Part shown: one piece after another, positions 1 through 9,349 of the stretch | Layout: every line of letters starts with the position of its first letter | Position numbering within the stretch: position 1 is the stretch's first letter | The notes under the pieces: generated by a model | Told to the model about the DNA's origin: nothing | The model's input: only the letters and a program-made list of their open reading frames with translations | Databases searched by the model: none | Assembly: GCA_016934645.1 (NCBI GenBank) | Contig: JAFGSL010000296.1 | Location: forward strand, 1-9,349 | Direction: 5' to 3' | From: Anaerolineae bacterium | GTDB taxonomy: Bacteria > Chloroflexota > Anaerolineae > B4-G1 > SLSP01 | Length of the DNA stretch: 9,349 bases | Program-made: the position numbers and the translations under genes

Positions 1-7
1 AAAAGAG

Positions 8-79
8 TAGCGGGGGGTGGATTCGAACCACCGACCTTTGGGTTATGAGCCCAACGAGCTGCCACTGCTCCACCCCGCA
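8..79 (-). tRNA. Initiator tRNA-Met (anticodon CAU)
   Basis: On the minus strand this folds as a complete cloverleaf. The acceptor strands are TGCGGGG and CCCCGCT, the D arm is GAGC/GCTC, the anticodon arm is TTGGG-CTCATAA-CCCAA, and the T arm is GGTGG-TTCGAAT-CCACC, with discriminator A at position 8. Two features mark it as the initiator and not elongator Met or Ile2. The first acceptor pair is a mismatch (U1 opposite U72), and the anticodon stem ends in three G-C pairs (GGG/CCC) next to the loop. No 3' CCA is encoded. A short T-run is visible at the window edge and may be the start of a terminator. Confidence 0.96.
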
Positions 80-131: not shown

Positions 132-2699
132 TCATTCGTTGCCGGCAGGCGCCTCCGGCAAATTGGGGCATGTGGCACGATAGGGTTCGTCACCGAGATA
201 TTGCCGCCACTCCTCACGGGTGAGGTTGCGGGTGAGACGTCCACAAGCCAAATCAATCATGTCCTCTGACTGCCACCGCCAAATCCGCACTGAACCTATC
301 CCCTCCCAACCAAACACCGAGACAACCCGTTGATCATCAGAGCTGAAGGCTACAAAACTAACTGGGGCCGATTTGTGGGTCATCTCCGCCACAATACATC
401 CGGTCGCAGCTTCCCACACACGCGCGACCCCATTCCAGCTTCCGGAGACCACCCATTGTCCATCTGGGCTGAAAGCTACAGCATTTACAGCTTGATAAGC
501 CCCTTCTACTTTGGGTATCATTCGTGACACCTCGCGGCCGCTTTCCACATCCCATACCCAAGCCATGCCATCCGTACTACCGGAGGCTATCCACCGTCCG
601 TCCGGGCTAAAAGCGACAGATAATACCTGAGTGTCAAGCTTCATCATCTGCACTTTGCGCGGAGGAAATGTCTCTAAATCCCACACCTGCACAAAACCAC
701 TGATACATCCCTCTCGGTAACTCACTTGACCACATCCTGCGGCAGCAAACTTACGCCCATCGGGACTGAAAGTTAATATCTTCGGCCACCCCTCTATACT
801 CATCTGCTCATGCATCACCTTGTTTCCGGTAGCAATTTCCCACATCTCGATTAAACTATTGACTCCATCGCCATTACCATAGGCAACTCGTTGTCCATCC
901 GGACTGACCGCTGTAACGATTATCAGCGGCTGACCCTGTAGCCGCGCCACCTCATATCCGGCAGCAGCAGCTATCGATGCTTCCACATCGTACACGTATA
1001 TCGTATCCGTGTAAGCCGAGGTCAACCAGCGTCCATCTGCACTCAAGCTTATAATTCCTGGTGCCCTATCATACATTATCCGCAGTGCTTCCCTCCCACC
1101 AGTTGCCGATGCAAAGGTTTCCCAATCCCACACACGCACCGAAGAACGGACACAATGCTTTTCATAGAGATCATCATACTCATCACAATGAGATACAGCA
1201 ACCCACTGCCCCCCCATGCTAATATACGCAGGCCACTTCAAGGCTATCTCCCGTATTGTCACCCCATCTGGATTGCGCAGAGATGACATATCCCACGCCC
1301 GCGCTATATCGTCGGCGCAGCCGGACACCACCCAACGCCCGTCTGCACTAAAAGCTACCGCGTTTACCGGCTCATCGTGTACCATTCGCGCTACCTCGTG
1401 CCCGGTGGTCACTTCCCACATCCGCATCATGCCACCCCAATCCCCAGAAATCACCCACTGACCATCTGGACTGAAGGCTACAGCAGTTACCGTGCCATTG
1501 TGTGTCAGCCGCGCCACTTCACGACCGGTTGCCACTTCCCACACCCGCGCCGTACCATCCGTACTACCTGAGGCTATCCATCGCCTGTCCAAGCTGAAGG
1601 TCACAACGCCGATTCCATTATCGTGCGGCATTTGTACAAGCTCATGCCCAGTGGAAGCTTCCCACACCCGCGCCGTGGTATCATCATAGCTCGTTGTAAC
1701 CACCCACAGCTCGTCTGCGCTATAAGTCACAGCTCTGACTATACCTGCATACCTCGTCCGTGCCACCTCTTGCCCGGTAGCCGTTTCTAGTACAACTACT
1801 GTGCCATCTTCACTCCCGAAAATTACTCGCTGCCCGTCTGGACTGAAGGCCACTGCGGTTATACTTCGTTTATGGGATATTCTTGTCACCTCACGCCCGG
1901 TTTCTGCTTCCCACACCCGCACCGTATCGTCATCACTACCAGAGACAACCACACGCCCATCTGGACTGAAGGTCACTGCCGTCACCCACATCTGATGCGG
2001 CATTCGCGCGATCTCGCGCCCGGTTTCCACCTCCCATACCCGCGCTGTACCATCGTAACTGCCGGAGACTGCCCATCGCCCATCTGGGCTCAACGCCACA
2101 GCAATCACAGACATCTCGTGCGTCAAGCGCGCCACCTCGCGGGGCAACAACGCCAGACCATCTGCCACAAGTTGATCCGCTGCCCTCTCCGGATAGCGAC
2201 GCAACGATTCTACCGCCAACAACAGCGCGAGCGGGGATTGCGCTGGACTGTTATCAAATATGTAGCGCCCCTCTAGAGTCAGATAACGAGCCAGGGCTAT
2301 CTGGGCTTGCTGTTCAGGTTCCGCCATCGCCTGAGGGATCTCGACTTCAGTGTGCAGAGCCTCAACGGTAGCCCCAGCGGCTTCAGCCTCGGCTTGCCAT
2401 ATTCTGGCTTCGGCTTGCGTGGTAGTTCTCACGTTGGCCTCGGACATTGCCGTGCTCTGGATGACTTGCACAGAGTCCTGCGTCTGTTGCATGCTTCGAA
2501 TTTGGCTTAGAACGATAGCGACCAACACCACGCTTATCAGCGCAAGTGCCGCCGCCAGCCAGCGAAGGCGGCGGTTCTGTACACACATGCGTTGATCTTG
2601 AGCAGAGAGAGGGTGAGAAAGCGACTGTAGGTCATCTGCATCTTCGGTTACATCGGGGACATGGTCTGTTGAAGAGTTAGAAGAAGTATCGATCTTCAT
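132..2699 (-). CDS. Membrane-anchored 14-blade WD40 repeat protein
   Basis: An 855-aa protein. Residues 1-46 are polar and end in an Arg-rich patch (R43, R44, R46). Residues 47-67 form one transmembrane segment. Residues 70-135 are Ala/Glu/Gln-rich and look like a coiled-coil stalk, and 136-186 resemble the helical linker that precedes propellers in STAND-WD40 proteins. Residues 189-812 hold 14 WD40 blades (FSPDGRW, SGS.DGTARVWE motifs), enough for two seven-bladed propellers. The tail at 815-855 (NLTREEWRQYLGDEPYR) is typical of the C-terminus of large NACHT/kinase-WD40 proteins, but no NTPase or kinase domain is present here. The charge pattern predicts the N-terminus inside and the propellers outside. 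Cys pairs C505/C516 and C656/C665 sit in loop insertions. The start is supported by AAGGAGA at 2710-2704. The likely role is a protein-binding scaffold or sensor; the ligand is unknown. Confidence 0.93.
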   Translation of the reverse strand: MKIDTSSNSSTDHVPDVTEDADDLQSLSHPLSAQDQRMCVQNRRLRWLAAALALISVVLVAIVLSQIRSMQQTQDSVQVIQSTAMSEANVRTTTQAEARIWQAEAEAAGATVEALHTEVEIPQAMAEPEQQAQIALARYLTLEGRYIFDNSPAQSPLALLLAVESLRRYPERAADQLVADGLALLPREVARLTHEMSVIAVALSPDGRWAVSGSYDGTARVWEVETGREIARMPHQMWVTAVTFSPDGRVVVSGSDDDTVRVWEAETGREVTRISHKRSITAVAFSPDGQRVIFGSEDGTVVVLETATGQEVARTRYAGIVRAVTYSADELWVVTTSYDDTTARVWEASTGHELVQMPHDNGIGVVTFSLDRRWIASGSTDGTARVWEVATGREVARLTHNGTVTAVAFSPDGQWVISGDWGGMMRMWEVTTGHEVARMVHDEPVNAVAFSADGRWVVSGCADDIARAWDMSSLRNPDGVTIREIALKWPAYISMGGQWVAVSHCDEYDDLYEKHCVRSSVRVWDWETFASATGGREALRIMYDRAPGIISLSADGRWLTSAYTDTIYVYDVEASIAAAAGYEVARLQGQPLIIVTAVSPDGQRVAYGNGDGVNSLIEMWEIATGNKVMHEQMSIEGWPKILTFSPDGRKFAAAGCGQVSYREGCISGFVQVWDLETFPPRKVQMMKLDTQVLSVAFSPDGRWIASGSTDGMAWVWDVESGREVSRMIPKVEGAYQAVNAVAFSPDGQWVVSGSWNGVARVWEAATGCIVAEMTHKSAPVSFVAFSSDDQRVVSVFGWEGIGSVRIWRWQSEDMIDLACGRLTRNLTREEWRQYLGDEPYRATCPNLPEAPAGNE
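139..161 (-). terminator. Hairpin at the 3' end of the WD40 gene
   Basis: TTGCCGG (139-145) and CCGGCAA (155-161) form a perfect 7-bp stem around a loop that itself contains AGGCGCCT. It lies over the last codons of the WD40 gene. No U-tract follows it on the minus strand, so it is not a standard intrinsic terminator. It may pause transcription or protect the 3' end. It could also be chance within a GC-rich stretch. Confidence 0.25.
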
Positions 2700-3002: not shown

Positions 3003-3030
3003 TTGACATACACCATATATCCGCTATACT
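3003..3030 (+). promoter_or_regulatory. Promoter of the regulator-transporter operon
   Basis: TTGACA (3003-3008) matches the -35 consensus exactly. It is followed by a 16-base spacer and TATACT (3025-3030), 5 of 6 for the -10 box. The start site should fall near 3037, leaving a leader of about 25 bases before the ATG at 3062, with GGAG at 3051-3054. That leader is too short for a riboswitch, so control is more likely by a protein at the repeats that overlap this promoter. Confidence 0.8.
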
Positions 3031-3050
3031 GGACATATATCCACTTTAAT
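3014..3050 (+). repeat. Direct repeat overlapping the operon promoter, candidate operator
   Basis: CATATATCCGCTATACT (3014-3030) and CATATATCCACTTTAAT (3034-3050) match in 14 of 17 positions, with the first nine bases identical. They start 20 bases apart, about two helical turns, so a bound protein would see both on one face. The first copy covers the spacer and -10 box and the second covers the likely start site, which suits repression. The IclR-family protein encoded just downstream is the natural candidate ligand. IclR sites are often palindromic and this is a tandem repeat, so the match is not textbook. TCCA/TGGA (3040-3043, 3050-3053) is a small inverted pair in the same area. Duplicated -10-like sequence is an alternative explanation. 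Confidence 0.45.
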
Positions 3051-3061
3051 GGAGTATCTAT

Positions 3062-4249
3062 ATGGATTACCACCGCCATGTTCCGGCTTCGATACGCACG
3101 CTGCACATCCTGGAATCACTGGCCGCAGAGCCAGGCGGATTGACCGCCGGACAATTGGCCAAAACCCTGGATATCCCGCACAGTGCGCTCCACGCGCTAC
3201 TCAATACGCTCAAATCCCAGGATTACATCGTGCAAACAGGCGTGCGACAGCCCTATCAAATCGGACCACGCGCGCAGGCACTCGGCCAGGCGCGCCCCTC
3301 GGGGATCAACGCGCTCGTCAACGCCTTTTATGAGGAAACAGCGCGCCATCCCCCCACAGAGACGCTGGCCCTGGCAACGCTTGCCGATACTAACAGCATC
3401 GCGCTCATCCTTGCCGAAGCGCCGTCTGCGCAGATCGTCCGCTGTGCCGTTCCCGTTGGACAGAGAACACCTGCCGCAGAACACCCGGCAGGGTTGGTGC
3501 TCCTGGCAGACCTCACGCCTGCTGGTCCGGAACGTGCTGTGGCGCATCCTAACGCAGAGTTGCACAACGCGCTCCAACAAACGCGCCGTCAGACGATGGC
3601 CCGCTCCGCCGATAACGACACTGTGACCCTGGCCGTGCCGGTCTGTCCCGACGGCCAGCGCCCGGAGGCCGCCCTGTTAGCAAGCATCCCGGCGTTCCGT
3701 TGGGATGCCGTCCACGAAGCACTATTGCTGTCCAGTTTGCGCGAAATGGCCGCGCGTCTCTCCTATCGTCTCGGTGCACTCAACTACACACCCTACAGCA
3801 CAGCGCAACCACACCCGCACGGACCAAGCATCCCCATGCCCGAAGCGGAACTGCACGCATTCCTCGACGGACCGTGGGCTGCGCGCCTGGCTTGTATCCG
3901 GCCTGACGGCTCACCGCACGTGGTGCCCATCTGGTACGAGTGGCGCGCGACGTTCCTCATCACTGCCTGGCCCGGCTCGGTATGGGCCGACTTCGTCACA
4001 CAGAATCCAACAGTAGCACTCACCATTGACGAACCATGGCCGCCGATGCGACGCGTCCTGGTGCGCGGGCAGGCGCAGGCCCTCGCGCCCGACAGCATTC
4101 CTGGTGGCATCGAAGGGCTGTGTACACGGCTCACCGTCCGTTACCTCGGCGCTCCCGTACAATCCATCAAGGGAGATCAGTCCCGAACGGCCTGGAAAGC
4201 CTTCCGCATCCTACCGATGAAGATGATCGCACACCGGGAACAACAATGA
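3062..4249 (+). CDS. IclR-family regulator fused to a PPOX/FMN-binding split-barrel domain
   Basis: A 395-aa protein. Residues 8-72 form an IclR-type winged helix (SIRTLHILESLAAEPGGLTAGQLAK, then a recognition helix near 39-50). Residues 80-238 match the IclR effector-binding domain in layout (ETLALATLAD near 100; TLAVPVCPDG near 189). A Pro/His-rich linker (239-258) leads to a pyridoxamine-phosphate-oxidase-like split barrel at 259-395, with the hallmarks ARLACIRPDGSPHVVPIWY (274-292), the TAWPGSVWADF segment (301-311) and VLVRGQAQAL (332-341). Ordinary IclR proteins are about 250 aa, so the last 140 residues are a real fusion in one open frame. PPOX domains bind FMN, F420 or haem in known members. 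Which one applies here cannot be read from sequence. The gene is first in the operon with GGAG 7 bases before the ATG, and its stop overlaps the ATPase start. The likely role is a cofactor-sensing transcription factor that controls its own operon. Confidence 0.92.
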   Translation: MDYHRHVPASIRTLHILESLAAEPGGLTAGQLAKTLDIPHSALHALLNTLKSQDYIVQTGVRQPYQIGPRAQALGQARPSGINALVNAFYEETARHPPTETLALATLADTNSIALILAEAPSAQIVRCAVPVGQRTPAAEHPAGLVLLADLTPAGPERAVAHPNAELHNALQQTRRQTMARSADNDTVTLAVPVCPDGQRPEAALLASIPAFRWDAVHEALLLSSLREMAARLSYRLGALNYTPYSTAQPHPHGPSIPMPEAELHAFLDGPWAARLACIRPDGSPHVVPIWYEWRATFLITAWPGSVWADFVTQNPTVALTIDEPWPPMRRVLVRGQAQALAPDSIPGGIEGLCTRLTVRYLGAPVQSIKGDQSRTAWKAFRILPMKMIAHREQQ

Positions 4250-5016
4250 ATATTGTTGTGCGCGGCATCACCAAGTCCTTCAACAGTGGACCAGTGCCCC
4301 TCGTCGTACTCGATCCCATCACCCTGGATGTGACGACGGGCGAATTCGTCTGCCTTATCGGGCCGAGCGGTTGTGGAAAGTCCACGCTGCTGCGGCTCAT
4401 CGCTGATCAGATACCGGCGACAACAGGTGACATCTGCCTGGACGGCGCTCCGCCCGGCGTGGCGCGCAAGGCCAAGCAGATCGCGTGGATGGCACAAAAT
4501 CCGGCCTTGCTCCCCTGGCAAACGGTATACGACAATGTACGGCTTCCGCAACGCCTCAACGGGACATCAAACCGCAAACACAGCGAACGACTCGCTCCCG
4601 AAGGCTTGCTGCGTACCGTCGGGCTGGCGGACTTCGCCCAGGCCTATCCTGGCACTCTCTCCGGTGGAATGCAGCAGCGCGCAGCCCTGGCCCGCGCATT
4701 GGCAACGGGGGCACAGCTCTGGTTGATGGACGAACCCTTCGCCGCGCTGGACGAACTCACCCGCGAGACGCTGGCCGACGAAGTACTACATCTCTGGCAG
4801 ACCTTCCGCCCGACAGTGCTTTGGGTGACGCACAACATCGCCGAAGCTGTGCGCATGGCCGATCGCGTCGTCGTGATGAGTGCGCGACCCGGACACATCC
4901 TGGCGGCCATTGCCATTATGCAGTCCCGTCCACGCGACGAAACTGCGCCAGAGATCGCCGCCATCATCCGCCGCCTGCGGGCTGTCCTGCGTGAGGAAAA
5001 AGTCTCAACGGATTGA
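4246..5016 (+). CDS. ABC transporter ATP-binding protein, NitT/TauT type
   Basis: A 256-aa nucleotide-binding subunit that powers import through the permease encoded next. All motifs are intact: Walker A GPSGCGKST (39-47), Q-loop Q84 in WMAQNPALLPW, signature LSGGMQQR (138-145), Walker B LWLMDEP (158-164), D-loop ALD (167-169), and the switch histidine H195 in WVTHN. The Q-loop form and size match the SsuB/TauB/ThiZ group. The start at 4246 overlaps the regulator's stop codon as ATGA, indicating translational coupling. The open frame extends upstream to 4036, but that part lies wholly inside the regulator gene and precedes the family's usual N-terminus, so it is not used. Confidence 0.97.
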   Translation: MNIVVRGITKSFNSGPVPLVVLDPITLDVTTGEFVCLIGPSGCGKSTLLRLIADQIPATTGDICLDGAPPGVARKAKQIAWMAQNPALLPWQTVYDNVRLPQRLNGTSNRKHSERLAPEGLLRTVGLADFAQAYPGTLSGGMQQRAALARALATGAQLWLMDEPFAALDELTRETLADEVLHLWQTFRPTVLWVTHNIAEAVRMADRVVVMSARPGHILAAIAIMQSRPRDETAPEIAAIIRRLRAVLREEKVSTD

Positions 5017-5029
5017 GAGGAACGCAAAA

Positions 5030-5878
5030 ATGAACGAGGCTGTGCCCACCATAAAACGGGACGTGATTTCCGCCACCGGCATCGTCGGGGCAGCGCTGCT
5101 GGCATGGGAGATCGCCGTACGGCTCAACAACACCCCACCCTACATCCTGCCATCACCATCGGCGATTGCGGGCAGGCTCTGGCAAAATGCGGGGTATCTG
5201 TGCACCGCAGCAGGCGTCACATTGGGCGAAGCACTCGGTGGACTGCTGCTTGGGTTGATCGTCGGCACTACAATGGCGGCGCTCATCACCTTTCTGGTGC
5301 CTCTGGAACGTGGTGTGCTGGCGCTGGCGATCCTCGTCAAGGCCACGCCATTGGTCGCCATCGCCCCACTGCTCACCATCTGGCTCGGTTTCGGCCCACT
5401 GCCCAAAGTGATCATCACCGCTCTGCTCACCTTCTTCCCGGTGCTCATCAATGTCCACAGCGGTCTGCATGCCGTGGATGAGGCAGTACTCGCGCTGTTT
5501 CACTCGCTGGATGCCGGGCGGTGGGCGCTCTTCCGGCACGCGCGCTGGCCTACGGCGCTACCGTATTTGTTCGCCGCGTTGAAAGTCATCGCACCGCTCG
5601 CTGTGACCGGCGCCGTCGTCGCCGAGTGGGCCGGCGCGTCGGCGGGACTAGGCCGCGCGATGTGGCTGGCCTACGCCAATTTGAATTTACCCGTGCTCTT
5701 CGCCGCTGTCTTCTACTCGGCCGTGATGAGCATTGTTCTATACGTACTGGTCATTGTGTTAGAAAAGCGGATGATTTTCTGGCAACAGAATGGCGTTGAA
5801 ATCCCGGGCGGGCCTCCGGCCCGCCCGGCCGGGCGAGACGCCCGACCCCCATCACGATTTTTGGAGGAGGAAGTATGA
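5030..5878 (+). CDS. ABC transporter permease, NitT/TauT (ThiX/RibX-like) type
   Basis: A 282-aa inner-membrane subunit with about six hydrophobic segments (near 13-31, 62-90, 95-120, 124-145, 180-200 and 222-245). YILPSPSAI (38-46) is the typical entry motif of SsuC/TauC/ThiX permeases. The cytoplasmic coupling loop lies around 152-182 (ALFHSLDAGRWALFRHARWP), a diverged EAA loop that docks the ATPase. The ATG at 5030 has AGAGGAA 8 to 9 bases upstream and starts 13 bases after the ATPase stop. The frame continues upstream to 4880, but that part is inside the ATPase gene. Residues 259-282 are a polar, Pro/Arg-rich tail encoded by a GC-rich hairpin element and are not expected in the family. 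The stop overlaps the next start as ATGA. Substrate is inferred only from the binding protein. Confidence 0.95.
   Translation: MNEAVPTIKRDVISATGIVGAALLAWEIAVRLNNTPPYILPSPSAIAGRLWQNAGYLCTAAGVTLGEALGGLLLGLIVGTTMAALITFLVPLERGVLALAILVKATPLVAIAPLLTIWLGFGPLPKVIITALLTFFPVLINVHSGLHAVDEAVLALFHSLDAGRWALFRHARWPTALPYLFAALKVIAPLAVTGAVVAEWAGASAGLGRAMWLAYANLNLPVLFAAVFYSAVMSIVLYVLVIVLEKRMIFWQQNGVEIPGGPPARPAGRDARPPSRFLEEEV
5804..5844. repeat. GC-rich double-hairpin (REP-like) element inside the permease 3' end
   Basis: CCGGGCGGGCC (5804-5814) pairs perfectly with GGCCCGCCCGG (5818-5828) across a 3-base loop. One base further on, CGGGCG (5830-5835) pairs with CGCCCG (5839-5844) across AGA. This is far more structure than coding constraint would give. 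It encodes the atypical permease tail, and a T5 run follows at 5858-5862 before the binding-protein ribosome site. Two readings are possible: an inserted REP-like palindromic repeat that stayed in frame, or a hairpin that sets the ratio of binding protein to permease by protecting or pausing the mRNA. The spacing to the T-run is too long for a standard terminator. Confidence 0.7.
5863..5870 (+). promoter_or_regulatory. Strong ribosome binding site of the binding-protein gene
   Basis: GGAGGAGG ends 4 bases before the ATG at 5875 and offers two overlapping Shine-Dalgarno registers. It is the strongest such site in the operon. This fits the usual need for more solute-binding protein than membrane subunits. 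Confidence 0.8.
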
Positions 5879-6864
5879 AAAGGGTCCTCGTTGTGTGGGC
5901 GTTGGCTGTGTTACTGGCGACAGGGTGTGCAAAAGCAACACCGGAAGCGAAAAGCCTCGTCTTTATGGCGGGCTACCAGCCCCAGGCAGACCTGCCGTTT
6001 GTGGGCGTCTACGTGGCGCAGGAGAAGGGATTTTTCGCCGAAGAGGCACTGACGGTGGACATCCGACACACTGCCGGAAAGGGCGAGCACCTGCAACTAC
6101 TCGTCGCTGGGATGGTGGACGTCACCACGCAGGATGCTGCCGTGTTGCTCAAGCGCCGCGCAGATCCCGGTCTGCCACTTGTCTCCATCGCCCTCGTTGG
6201 GCAACGCGGGCAGCAGGCGTTCGTCGCGCTGGCGGATTCCGGAATACAGACGCCGCAGGACTGGACCGGACACACAATCGGCTACAAGGGGACGCCGCCG
6301 CCCGATCTGCTGGCTATGCTGGATGTAGCGGGATTGATCGAGGCGGACGTCGAACTGATCAACGTCGGCTTCGACCCGCGCGTGTTGACCGAGGGCATGG
6401 TCGACGTGTATCCGGTCTACAACTCCAACGAGCCGTATCTGCTTCAAAGCTGGGGCTATGAGCTGGTCCAATGGGAAGCTGCTGACTATGGCATCCCCAC
6501 CCTGGGACTGACCTACGTCACGACGCCGGATATCATCGCGAAGGATCCGGAGCGCATCGAGCGTTTCCTGCGGGCGGCACTACACGGCATTGCCTACGCC
6601 GAGGATCACGTGGATGAAGCCGTCGAGATTGTGCTCAAGTACACCGGGCCGGAGACCGACCCCAATCACATGCGCTTTATGCTGGAAACTGAGATAGCCG
6701 ACGCACATAGCACTCTCACCGAAGAACACGGTATCGGTTGGCAGACCGAAGAGCAATGGCAGGCGCTTATCGACTCGCTGCTCCAATACGGCGCGCTCGC
6801 CGGGCCAGTTGAGGCAGATGAGGCGTTCACGAATCAGTTTCTCGAAGCACTACAAAAGAAGTAG
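5875..6864 (+). CDS. Lipoprotein solute-binding protein, NMT1/THI5 (ThiY/RibY-like) family
   Basis: A 329-aa extracytoplasmic binding protein that delivers substrate to the permease. Residues 1-17 are a lipoprotein signal (KR, then hydrophobic, ending LLATG) with the lipidated Cys at 18. The -3 residue is Ala, so the lipobox is slightly loose. The mature part begins with the family opening VFMAGYQPQADLPFVGVYVA (29-48), then EKGFFAEEALTVDI (50-63), and GKGEHLQLLVAGMVDV (68-83) at the ligand cleft. NSNEPYLLQSWGYELV (183-198) and DYGIP (204-208) recall the second lobe of ThiY-type proteins. Characterised relatives bind thiamine pyrimidine precursors (ThiY) or riboflavin (RibY of Chloroflexus). 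The window cannot decide between these, and other aromatic substrates are possible. The protein is translationally coupled to the permease by an ATGA overlap. Confidence 0.93.
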   Translation: MKRVLVVWALAVLLATGCAKATPEAKSLVFMAGYQPQADLPFVGVYVAQEKGFFAEEALTVDIRHTAGKGEHLQLLVAGMVDVTTQDAAVLLKRRADPGLPLVSIALVGQRGQQAFVALADSGIQTPQDWTGHTIGYKGTPPPDLLAMLDVAGLIEADVELINVGFDPRVLTEGMVDVYPVYNSNEPYLLQSWGYELVQWEAADYGIPTLGLTYVTTPDIIAKDPERIERFLRAALHGIAYAEDHVDEAVEIVLKYTGPETDPNHMRFMLETEIADAHSTLTEEHGIGWQTEEQWQALIDSLLQYGALAGPVEADEAFTNQFLEALQKK

Positions 6865-7227: not shown

Positions 7228-8403
7228 ATGCCAGGACAGAGAATTCAAGCAAAAGAGCGACTCGCTTTGGAAACTGTCGTGCGTGGGAACACTGCTTTTG
7301 CGCTCGATCTCTACCAGAAACTACGAACCATCGAGGGCAACCTCTTCTTCTCTCCCTACAGCATATCCACAGCCTTGGCAATGACCTATGCTGGCGCGCG
7401 CGGGAGCACCGAGACACAAATGGCGCAAGCCCTTCACTTCACATTGAGCCAAAGCACACTTCATCCCGCTTTTACCGCTCTGGAAGCGCGCTTGAGAAGT
7501 GTGCAAGAGAAGGGCGACATCCTGCTGCAGATTGCCAATGCATTATGGCCTCATATAGGTTATCCATTTCTCGAGACGTTTCTTACCCTGACAGAAGAAT
7601 TCTACAGGGTATCCATTACTCCTGTGGATTATCGCGCCGCCGAAGTAGCGCGTCAACAGATCAATACCTGGGTCGAAGAGAAAACACAAACCAAGATCAA
7701 GAATTTGATCCCGCCGGGAGTCCTTGACGATTTGACACGTCTTGTATTGGTCAATGCGATCTACTTCAAGGGGAATTGGGCCAGCCAGTTTGCGAAGGAA
7801 CGCACACAAACCGTGCCATTCCTGGTAACACCTTCCCAGAAAGTGGAAGCGCCGATGATGGCGCAGGAGCACCCGTTCGGGTATGGGGAAACTGATCGCC
7901 TGCAAATTCTCGAACTCCCCTACGTTGGAAGTGACCTATCGATGATCGTCTTGTTGCCCAAGGAGGTTGACGGCCTGGCAGAACTCGAGACGGCCCTGAG
8001 CGCTCCGAATTTGGAACTATGGACCAACCGCCTCTGGGAGAAAGAAGTTCATGTCTTCCTACCGAGGTTCAAAATAAGTCAGGGCGTTAAGTTAAATCAT
8101 ACTTTGGCTTTAATGGGAATGGTGGATGCATTTGATGAATTGAAAGCCAATTTCTCCGGTATGGACGGGAATGAGAACTGGTTGTATATCGCCGCCGTCT
8201 TGCACAAAGCCTTCGTCGATGTGAACGAGGAAGGCACTGAGGCAGCCGCTGCAACAGCAGTCATTATGGGTGCCAGAGGACTACCTTCCTCTCCTCCCAT
8301 CTTTCGCGCCGACCATCCGTTTGTCTTTCTGATTCGTGAAAACAGCACGAGAAGCATCTTGTTTCTTGGCAGAGTGGTGAATCCTACACTCAAGGATAGC
8401 TGA
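7228..8403 (+). CDS. Serpin (serine protease inhibitor)
   Basis: A 391-aa full-length serpin, a suicide inhibitor that traps a target protease by inserting its cleaved loop into a beta sheet. Typical stretches are present: NLFFSPYSISTALAMTYAGA (38-57), LVLVNAIYFKGNW (172-184), LPYVGSDLSMIVLLP (230-244), FLPRFKIS (277-284), VLHKAFVDVNEEGTEAAAAT (324-343), and the end motif HPFVFLIRENSTRSILFLGR (363-382). The hinge EEGTEAAAATA (334-344) has the small residues needed for inhibition. Counting from P15 Gly336 places P1 at Arg350 and P1' at Gly351, which predicts a trypsin-like target. The stretch after P1 is about three residues longer than in alpha-1-antitrypsin. No signal peptide is visible, so a cytoplasmic role is likely. 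The start has TAGGAG 7 bases before the ATG. The gene is less GC-rich than its neighbours. Confidence 0.97.
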   Translation: MPGQRIQAKERLALETVVRGNTAFALDLYQKLRTIEGNLFFSPYSISTALAMTYAGARGSTETQMAQALHFTLSQSTLHPAFTALEARLRSVQEKGDILLQIANALWPHIGYPFLETFLTLTEEFYRVSITPVDYRAAEVARQQINTWVEEKTQTKIKNLIPPGVLDDLTRLVLVNAIYFKGNWASQFAKERTQTVPFLVTPSQKVEAPMMAQEHPFGYGETDRLQILELPYVGSDLSMIVLLPKEVDGLAELETALSAPNLELWTNRLWEKEVHVFLPRFKISQGVKLNHTLALMGMVDAFDELKANFSGMDGNENWLYIAAVLHKAFVDVNEEGTEAAAATAVIMGARGLPSSPPIFRADHPFVFLIRENSTRSILFLGRVVNPTLKDS

Positions 8404-8416
8404 AAGTTGCATCGGT

Positions 8417-9349
8417 ATGGAAAATCCTGTAAACAACGAAGATAGCATTCCCCTCCGCCCCATCGTTATGCACGGCACATGGGACGGACAAACATTCTTC
8501 GTTTGGGGTGAGATTGCACCCGCGCCGGATGCCGCAAAACCACGGGGCCGGCGCGCGGCGGTGCGGGCGCATCCTTGCGCCGCCGCGCCGGACATCCTTC
8601 GCACAATGCTCGCGACGTGGGTGTCCGACGCTCCCGATACGACCCGCGCGCTGTTGCTGCCTTCCAACGCCGATTCTCCCCTCCTTCCGCCCTGGTTGCT
8701 TCCCACAACAGACGCTGAAGACGCACCGGATGACGGCGCACCGAATGGCAGCAATGCGCCGAATGACAGCGTGCCGTCATTGACCCCGTGGAAAGTCCCC
8801 GGTCTGGCGCTGGACATACTCGACGCGCTTGGCGTGCTCGTTGCGTTGCCCGCGCGTGACCGCGACCGCCGCTGGGGCGACGATCTGCGCTACTGGAGCC
8901 GCGTCGCCAAACTGGGATTGGAAATGCTGGCCCGCCAGCGCTATCTCCCCGGCCTGGAAGAAAACGAGGGCCGCTACCGCGCCGTCTGGCTGACGGTGCT
9001 CGACGATCCCAACGACCGCGCGCGGCTGAAAACGCTGGCCGAAACCATGCCACCGGTCTGCCGCGCCGTCTTCGATCCCAAGGGAACGCCCGATCCAGAA
9101 CAGGCGCGCGCCCCGCACGTGCTGCTCGATGACTTCATCAGGACGCTGATCGACCGCGCCGCGCGCGAGTGGGGCGTAGCACATCTTGACAAGCGCCGCA
9201 AAGCGCCGGAAGGCGTCGCCGGGCTGTGGTGGGACGCGCTATGGAGCGCGGACGGTTACATCCTCGCGCCGGTCAAGCAGCGCCGCGACCTGGCGCAGCT
9301 TTTCGAGGCGTGGCGCAGTTGGCTCGGCCAGTTGCAGGCCGCCGGCGAA
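8417..9349 (+). CDS. SNF2-family helicase, N-terminal part (runs off the window)
   Basis: An open frame of 311 codons with no stop before the window end, starting 13 bases after the serpin stop. The N-terminus has PIVMHGTWDGQTFFVWGE (15-32) followed by PRGRRAAVRAHPCAA (42-56). This resembles the opening of SNF2/DEAD-type helicases of Chloroflexota and actinobacteria that carry a helicase-associated (DUF3670-like) region. Residues 155-178 (WGDDLRYWSRVAKLGLEMLA in part) and WLTVLDDP (193-200) fit the same region. The ATPase motifs would lie beyond the window, so activity cannot be confirmed. No good Shine-Dalgarno precedes the ATG, which suggests coupling to the serpin. Alternative Met18 would cut the conserved HGTW opening. 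High GC and third-position GC support coding. In known relatives these proteins are ATP-driven nucleic-acid remodellers; the exact task is unknown. Confidence 0.7.
   Translation, partial: MENPVNNEDSIPLRPIVMHGTWDGQTFFVWGEIAPAPDAAKPRGRRAAVRAHPCAAAPDILRTMLATWVSDAPDTTRALLLPSNADSPLLPPWLLPTTDAEDAPDDGAPNGSNAPNDSVPSLTPWKVPGLALDILDALGVLVALPARDRDRRWGDDLRYWSRVAKLGLEMLARQRYLPGLEENEGRYRAVWLTVLDDPNDRARLKTLAETMPPVCRAVFDPKGTPDPEQARAPHVLLDDFIRTLIDRAAREWGVAHLDKRRKAPEGVAGLWWDALWSADGYILAPVKQRRDLAQLFEAWRSWLGQLQAAGE
8723..8770 (+). repeat. Short tandem repeat in the helicase coding region
   Basis: Three imperfect units of 15, 18 and 15 bases, each starting GC(A/G)CCG(A/G)AT, encode APDDG, APNGSN and APNDS. Together they make an acidic, flexible linker at residues 103-118. 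The units look like slippage expansion and are likely variable in length between strains. They interrupt an otherwise folded-looking domain. Confidence 0.6.

Follow-up and report, generated by a model that had tools for sequence, protein, structure and literature searches.

The stretch of DNA analysed here, hereafter the window, comprises 9,349 nucleotides of contig JAFGSL010000296.1 from an Anaerolineae bacterium (assembly GCA_016934645.1) and carries an operon in which an IclR-type regulator fused to a PPOX split barrel precedes the ATPase, permease and substrate-binding lipoprotein of an ABC transporter (Table 1). This operon is probably a dedicated, autoregulated system for the uptake of a deazaflavin, most likely FO, in bacteria that possess F420 genes without an FO synthase. 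FO stands for 7,8-didemethyl-8-hydroxy-5-deazariboflavin, from which cofactor F420 is made and which forms its headgroup. Among 50 genomes with the operon, proteins over the curated cut-offs were found for CofE in 45, for CofC in 38, for CofD in 27 and for the FO synthase CofH in none. Because the operon is tied to F420 genes and the FO synthase is absent, FO or another deazaflavin is a better candidate for the cargo than a flavin. In the mechanism proposed here, FO released by other microbes would be captured outside the cell by the binding protein, a paralogue of RibY, the permease and the ATPase would import it, and CofD, CofC and CofE, where present, would add the tail that turns FO into F420. 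In the available part of one study (PMC11104420), FO was found in the supernatant of a producer and was described as perhaps acting as a secreted ‘vitamin’ or ‘signal’.

The fusion regulator, its operon and the candidate operator

The fusion is real and widespread, and it goes with a single operon and a single operator element. An earlier note on the window had read a single frame as joining an IclR helix-turn-helix (HTH) and effector domain to a PPOX domain, with an ATPase, a permease and a ThiY- or RibY-like binding protein behind it, and this architecture was confirmed by domain and structure matches. The same note had considered an assembly artefact, which can be dismissed since the fusion was found in 55 loci and had 311 homologues at E <= 1e-3 among 7998 candidates scored. 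HTH_IclR and PNPOx_N were both present in 113 of the 120 fusion homologues among the matches listed, and the effector domain PF01614 was present in most of these. In the AlphaFold model of the fusion (mean predicted local distance difference test, pLDDT, 86.7; predicted template modelling score, pTM, 0.50), the first two domains resemble IclR-type regulators such as 3mq0 and 2g7u with a Foldseek probability of 1.00 and template modelling (TM) scores by target of 0.55–0.59; the structure search yielded nothing for the PPOX pocket, the best 50 matches listed being IclR-type regulators only. The fusion thus shares with the IclR family the HTH, the effector fold and a palindromic site near its own promoter. 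Repressors of the TtgV and BlcR type bind paired sites, and TtgV and BlcR (2xro, 3mq0) are like the fusion in combining an HTH and an effector fold with paired operator sites at the promoter; unlike them, the fusion adds a third, C-terminal PPOX domain.

When one genome per GTDB species was scanned, 57 loci were obtained, from which two partial, IclR-only loci (L056, L057) were dropped to give the 55. By label, these belong to Chloroflexota (mostly Anaerolineae or unplaced), with two from Acidimicrobiia and one from Phycisphaeraceae, and they include strains not marked as metagenome-assembled genomes (MAGs), namely Levilinea saccharolytica, Thermanaerothrix daxensis and Ornatilinea apprima. 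Downstream of the fusion, a permease was found in 53 of the 55 loci and a binding protein in 49, the contigs of the loci without one or the other ending 0–1.85 kb past the regulator, and the ATPase was absent between regulator and permease in ten. Because the DNA past the binding protein varies by lineage, the unit is regulator–(ATPase)–permease–binding protein; the downstream same-strand genes that were scanned (16 of 46) were, apart from cofC, unrelated or without a match. Across 27 other loci, identity to the window copy was 57–84% for the binding protein and 37–82% (best segments) for the fusion, and this better conservation of the binding protein argues for one cargo. Additionally, the lipobox residue Cys18 of the binding protein was kept in 28 of 28 copies. 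The ATGA couplings described in the earlier note hold at two of the three operon junctions (4246–4249, regulator/ATPase; 5875–5878, permease/binding protein), the ATPase and permease being separated instead by a 13-nt gap. Variants of the layout were also seen: a 482-aa, putatively secreted protein is inserted between permease and binding protein in one locus (L032:11950-13398), and five loci (L086, L088, L093, L081, L082) hold binding-protein orthologues with no fusion regulator within the 3.4–4 kb examined, two of them (L088, L093) beside a seemingly different, longer permease.

The leader that follows the promoter was estimated at about 25 nt at most, in line with the short leader noted earlier, and the region 3003–3050, suggested at that time for DNA-binding tests, does hold a conserved operator element, with palindromes at 3020–3053. 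In an alignment of the window with L001–L003, the TTGACA hexamer and the element after it were kept and the upstream DNA was divergent. The element that recurs across lineages consists of two 14-bp palindromes, TCCNNTATANTGGA, placed 20 bp start to start; the pair overlaps the –10 box in the window and generally ends 2–30 nt ahead of the start codon. Of 56 fusion promoters, 49 reach a pair score of 16 or more out of 22, and 54 have 20 bp as the best spacing; when the DNA of each promoter was shuffled 60 times with its dinucleotides preserved, no more than 5% of the shuffles equalled its score in 54 of the 56. The mean pair score was 17.9 in fusion promoters versus 12.4 in shuffled DNA, and 16 RibX promoters scored 11–13. 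The pattern was drawn up after 24 of the 56 promoters had been viewed; among the 32 unseen at that point, 26 score at least 16. On both strands of the 55 loci, 60 pairs scoring at least 18 were counted, 59 of them at the regulator start; the remaining one lies in L008, 338 bp upstream of its regulator, and the near promoter of that locus scored 12. A role of the operator in a wider F420 regulon was considered and rejected: no pair of at least 18 occurs in 13 F420-cluster loci (171 kb) of operon genomes, so the cof genes seem to lie outside the regulon. Such pairs were likewise absent from 12 cof loci of other genomes, 17 RibXY loci and 5 CofH loci. The natural reading is that the operator autoregulates this operon alone, in which case the IclR–PPOX protein would occupy the palindrome pair that covers the –10 box of its own promoter and repress the operon.

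F420 genes without an FO synthase

The 50 operon genomes searched (L024, L028, L033, L043 and L048 stand outside this set) held at least one of CofC, CofD and CofE in 47 cases and all three in 25; none of the three was found in G003, G016 and G031. In L010, L012, L014 and L020, the next gene past the binding protein is cofC (TIGR03552, over the equivalog cut-off). In L010 the two open frames overlap by 4 nt, although the true cofC start may be later because the family match begins at residue 25. In L149, cofD lies about 5 kb from the operon on the other strand. The clusters that were read contain cofE with npdG, which encodes NADPH:F420 reductase (over its cut-off in the three scanned), and several cofE clusters hold an LLM-family protein that resembles F420-dependent enzymes but falls under their cut-offs. 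In nine genomes (G015, G023, G026 (Levilinea), G032, G033, G036, G041, G043, G049), CofC and CofE were over the cut-off and CofD was not, which may mean that another protein replaces CofD, that a later intermediate is taken up or that data are missing.

In the CofH search of the 50 operon genomes, matches above 25 bits were obtained in G014 and G016 only, and the strongest of those in G016 scores best as MqnE, just under the MqnE cut-off. In genomes that have CofH, by comparison, CofG gave cross-hits of about 46–98 bits to the CofH search, no separate CofG search having been made. CofH-like matches of about 260–340 bits, involving five proteins of G210, G172 and G016, were considered as a hidden FO synthase and rejected, since their best score was as MqnC or MqnE, three over those cut-offs and two just under; between two of these proteins lies a putative MqnA-like gene.

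The association was also evaluated in a class sample of 298 genomes (the class of G020, partly overlapping the 50-genome set), class names resting on genome-record labels (L020, L026). Of the 40 genomes with the binding protein, 39 have CofE or CofD, compared with 149 of the 258 that lack it (p = 8e-8, uncorrected for kinship). The 40 orthologues were assigned by hand, with the contig-edge fragments G282, G291 and G272 included and G218 (268 bits) left out, and the full-length fusions of the class numbered 30 by hand count, G300 (partial, 250 bits) being excluded. At E <= 1e-20, CofE was counted in 183 genomes and CofD in 149, or 173 and 144 over the cut-off, and CofH was over its cut-off in 19. 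F420-tail genes without an FO synthase are therefore the rule in the class sample, even where the importer is absent. Near F420 genes, another NMT1-type ABC transporter was seen in an operon genome (L071:12611-15230) and in a genome with neither CofH nor importer (L096:2824-5465), in both cases close to a gene that is presumably MenA-like; it is a possible second cofactor-related importer.

In a second class, labelled Acidimicrobiia, CofE was present in 98 of 100 genomes and CofH was over the cut-off in 91. The sole binding-protein orthologue among these 100 (541.7 bits) belongs to G025, which was chosen as the centre of the sample because of that orthologue, and which has CofE and CofC over the cut-off and no CofH. 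The same was observed in G027, which carries this label and lies outside the sample: CofC, CofD and CofE are present, and CofH is not. This second class is the most independent check, yet it amounts to two genomes only.

Several observations weigh against FO uptake as the function of the operon. The genomes surveyed are mostly MAGs of unstated completeness, and the window’s own genome is not among them. CofD was not over its cut-off in 23 of the 50 operon genomes, and among the nearest relatives of the window G001, G002, G004 and G005 have CofE only and G003 has none of the three tail proteins. FO is useless without CofD unless it is used as such, and the cargo may therefore be F420-0 or F420; in the nearest relatives, the presence of CofE alone suggests either this cargo or missing data. 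One operon genome, G014, shows a CofG of 433 bits beside a divergent cofD (L066, G014:C104) on an 8.8-kb contig, possibly a stray, which also holds a putative SMC-like gene. The absence of the operator from F420 clusters, mentioned above, points the same way. In the class sample, the mutual exclusion with CofH is weak (CofH in none of the 40 genomes that have the binding protein and in 19 of the 258 others, p = 0.09; fusion versus CofH among CofE genomes, p = 0.046; neither corrected for kinship), and the class searches mostly scored 6–7 first-look candidates per genome, with the result that copies may be missed. Additionally, CofH and the importer are both missing from 98 of the 144 class genomes in which CofD and CofE occur together, and therefore another FO source must exist. 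FO diffusion or another importer may serve these 98 genomes; inspection by eye of 12 of these ‘neither’ genomes revealed no consistent alternative importer beside cof genes. The available text of a review (PMC8498797) states that FO diffuses readily across membranes. Free diffusion also makes an importer less necessary. Finally, five genomes of the second class (G352, G377, G390, G421, G436) have CofE over the cut-off with neither CofH nor a binding-protein orthologue, and G369 has CofH together with a weaker binding-protein relative (173.9 bits).

These points bear first on a variant in which the same system carries F420-0 or short-chain F420, so that only CofE would be needed for tail lengthening; we consider it possible, if unlikely. 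Such a cargo would suit the genomes with CofE and neither CofC nor CofD over the cut-off (G001, G002, G004, G005, G017, G021, G050), of which G001 and G002 keep npdG beside cofE, and, according to the same partly available review (PMC8498797), F420-0 does not cross membranes and FO does, so a pump is needed more for F420-0. However, CofC, CofD and CofE, kept together in half of the operon genomes, would then be redundant, small heterocycles are what RibY and the closest solved relatives bind, and the PPOX domain is without phosphate-binding residues.

There is also a small chance that the F420 link is a coincidence of lineage, with some other small molecule as cargo and the PPOX domain as a structural or dimerisation element without ligand. 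The co-occurrence counts ignore kinship, much of the class has F420 genes in any case (CofE or CofD in 188 of 298 genomes), three of the four loci with adjacent cofC are related, and the cof genes are without operator. On the other hand, the pattern repeats, in its two genomes, in a second class where CofH is near-universal, the PPOX domain is the most densely conserved part of the fusion, and the binding protein is paralogous to RibY. Uptake of a deazaflavin accounts for more of the evidence than the other readings and is retained as the probable function; the two proteins that would recognise the deazaflavin are considered below.

The binding protein and the PPOX domain

The closest solved relative of the binding protein is the formylaminopyrimidine-binding ThiY (3ix1; 27% identity, TM 0.73/0.79), followed by thiamin-bound 4nmy and then by pyridoxal phosphate (PLP)-bound Thi5. 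PqqT, which has a role in import, was also among the matches: in its pyrroloquinoline quinone-bound structures (9b1v, 9b1u, 9ooz) it shows the same fold with a polycyclic redox cofactor, but it is a weaker match, with 15–17% identity and a different cofactor. Over the 298 class genomes, a profile of the binding protein separated orthologues (311–594 bits, plus one contig-edge fragment at 171) from paralogues (at most 152 bits), with G218 (268 bits) as the single intermediate. A further relative at 173.9 bits, between orthologues and paralogues, was seen in an Acidimicrobiia-class genome with CofH (L148, G369:C22:2176-3174).

The paralogues belong to sister, RibXY-like transporter loci, 17 of which were read, one per operon genome; the ATPase is present in 17, the permease in 16 and the binding protein in 16. 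A flavin mononucleotide (FMN) riboswitch was detected in 13 of the 17 and was not seen in L117, L118, L119 and L122; in L109, a cobalamin riboswitch (5504-5648) lies about 1.4 kb from the FMN riboswitch. In a tree built without RibY of Chloroflexus itself, 28 operon binding proteins and 16 paralogues are parted by one long branch (SH-aLRT 100), which places the operon protein outside the RibY group, across the branch from the paralogues with FMN riboswitches. Since these genomes have a separate RibXY-like paralogue with an FMN riboswitch, the operon probably moves a riboflavin-related compound and not riboflavin.

Riboswitch control of the operon itself was considered and rejected. No Rfam riboswitch reached the gathering score in the window, as had been expected from its short leader, and none was present in nine whole operon loci; none of 20 fusion-gene leaders (1.3 kb each, one of 240 bases) had any Rfam match, and a thiamine pyrophosphate (TPP) riboswitch was absent from the window, the nine loci and the 20 leaders. 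FMN is commonly bound by PPOX domains, and the earlier note had accordingly proposed that a flavin-binding domain on the repressor reports cofactor status. In kind, this proposal stood, as a cofactor-type domain does head a riboswitch-free importer resembling RibXY and ThiXYZ; its ligand is not favoured, a deazaflavin fitting better than FMN or another flavin. RibXY(Z) of Chloroflexota, as described in the available part of its report (PMC4418817), resembles the operon in having a permease, a RibY-type binding protein and at times an ATPase in the same phylum, but it is controlled by an FMN riboswitch and not by a fusion repressor. A riboflavin importer, or FMN-status control with FMN held by the PPOX domain, is quite improbable: although Chloroflexus RibXY transports riboflavin and RibY is reported in that text to bind flavins (PMC4418817), and the operon protein is its paralogue, most operon genomes examined (the 13 of 17) have the separate FMN-riboswitch locus, the phosphate-binding residues are replaced in the PPOX domain, and the operon co-occurs with F420 genes. 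As improbable is a thiamine-pyrimidine (ThiXYZ-type) or B6 importer whose PPOX domain would be a pyridoxine-phosphate oxidase relic sensing PLP, since, although ThiY offers the closest solved fold and 4nmy and Thi5 come next, no TPP riboswitch accompanies the operon, no thiamine or B6 gene was recognised among the 16 downstream neighbours scanned, and the F420-gene tie and the missing CofH would be left without explanation.

The top NCBIfam match of the fusion is TIGR03618, an F420-dependent PPOX family, at 49.6 bits and thus under the cut-off of 79.05. Stand-alone PPOX relatives occur in three cof clusters of related genomes, and the one scanned, L098, is above the TIGR03618 cut-off. The fusion is like the FDOR-B/TIGR03618 protein MSMEG_3380 (3f7e) in this family match, but the segment that binds the phosphate and tail of the cofactor is replaced: KRQKYRN of MSMEG_3380 and GRVK(D/A)RN of the three stand-alone relatives are aligned with GSVWADF in the fusion, W308 and D310 falling opposite a lysine and an arginine of the segment in this closest solved relative. 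The PPOX domain of the fusion thus lacks the basic side chains through which the cofactor is held at its phosphate and tail. In the available part of a molecular dynamics study of MSMEG_3380 (PMC5623714), Lys53 contacts the phosphate, and Arg23, Arg54 and Arg205 contact the tail; the residue-by-residue match is approximate because that numbering differs by about 1 from the alignment count. R280 of the fusion aligns with the Arg23 candidate; all 115 aligned homologues keep both R280 and W308, and 65 of them have D or E at position 310. Conservation at 85% or more was counted at 37 of the 83 PPOX positions; the HTH has 18 such positions out of 48 and the effector domain 27 out of 136, which makes the PPOX domain the densest.

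The loss of cofactor-pocket residues, which had been anticipated as a refutation of cofactor binding, therefore holds for phosphate binding and disfavours FMN, particularly given the FMN-riboswitch locus elsewhere in operon genomes, but it is no bar to a ligand without phosphate. Judged from the alignment, a flavin-type barrel without phosphate grip would suit phosphate-free FO and equally a ligand-free barrel. In the favoured mechanism of FO uptake, this FDOR-B-related barrel would sense the deazaflavin pool, and FO may either release or tighten the repressor.

Flanking genes and significance

The features of the operon are collected in Table 1. On its upstream side, the window holds a large WD40 beta-propeller protein (132-2699, minus strand) and a tRNA-Met(CAT) gene (7-79, minus strand); on its downstream side lie a serpin (7228-8403, plus strand; 414.8 bits) and a 311-aa frame (8417-9349) that runs off the window end and had no Pfam match at E <= 0.1. 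In L001 and L002, the 1 kb ahead of the fusion gene contains two tRNA genes.

Table 1. Features of the operon, its promoter and its candidate operator in the window
Feature	Position	Strand	Basis
Sigma-70-type promoter TTGACA-16-TATACT	3003..3030	+	11/12 consensus matches
Operator palindrome 1, TCCGCTATACTGGA; contains the –10 element	3020..3033	+	Alignment, pattern scoring
Operator palindrome 2, TCCACTTTAATGGA; starts 20 bp from the start of palindrome 1	3040..3053	+	Alignment, pattern scoring
IclR–PPOX fusion regulator, 395 aa	3062..4249	+	Open reading frame, domain matches, homologues
HTH_IclR domain, residues 12-59	3095..3238	+	Pfam match, 42.3 bits (cut-off 22)
IclR effector-binding domain (IclR_C), residues 99-234	3356..3763	+	23.0 bits, 1 below the cut-off of 24; fold match
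PPOX/FDOR-B-like split barrel (PNPOx_N), residues 262-344	3845..4093	+	37.4 bits (cut-off 28.1)
ABC transporter ATPase	4246..5016	+	Domain match
ABC transporter permease	5030..5878	+	Domain match
Substrate-binding lipoprotein, NMT1/THI5 fold, RibY paralogue, candidate deazaflavin-binding protein	5875..6864	+	

The prevailing view is that F420 users make F420 themselves. In the available text of a 2021 review (PMC8498797), the genes for FO and those for the conversion of FO to F420 are said to co-occur in most organisms, and that text holds no mention of uptake, salvage or scavenging. Likewise, no deazaflavin importer and no IclR–PPOX fusion is reported in the open-licence literature searched, subscription papers being outside that scope. 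There is about an even chance that FO is exchanged as a vitamin, the FO synthase having been given up by many Chloroflexota and by no fewer than two Acidimicrobiia-labelled genomes, which would obtain a deazaflavin from their neighbours with a dedicated importer derived from RibXY, under the control of a deazaflavin-sensing IclR–PPOX repressor. If so, the importer and the regulator of this operon would each be the first of their kind for a deazaflavin, as far as the literature was searched; the regulator would be a candidate sensor of F420 metabolism, and the importer could be used to load FO into hosts engineered for F420. The question is testable in cultured Levilinea, Thermanaerothrix and Ornatilinea. 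FO would then be a public good with producers and takers, and the operon with its candidate sensor domain suggests that microbes share F420 in the manner of a vitamin.

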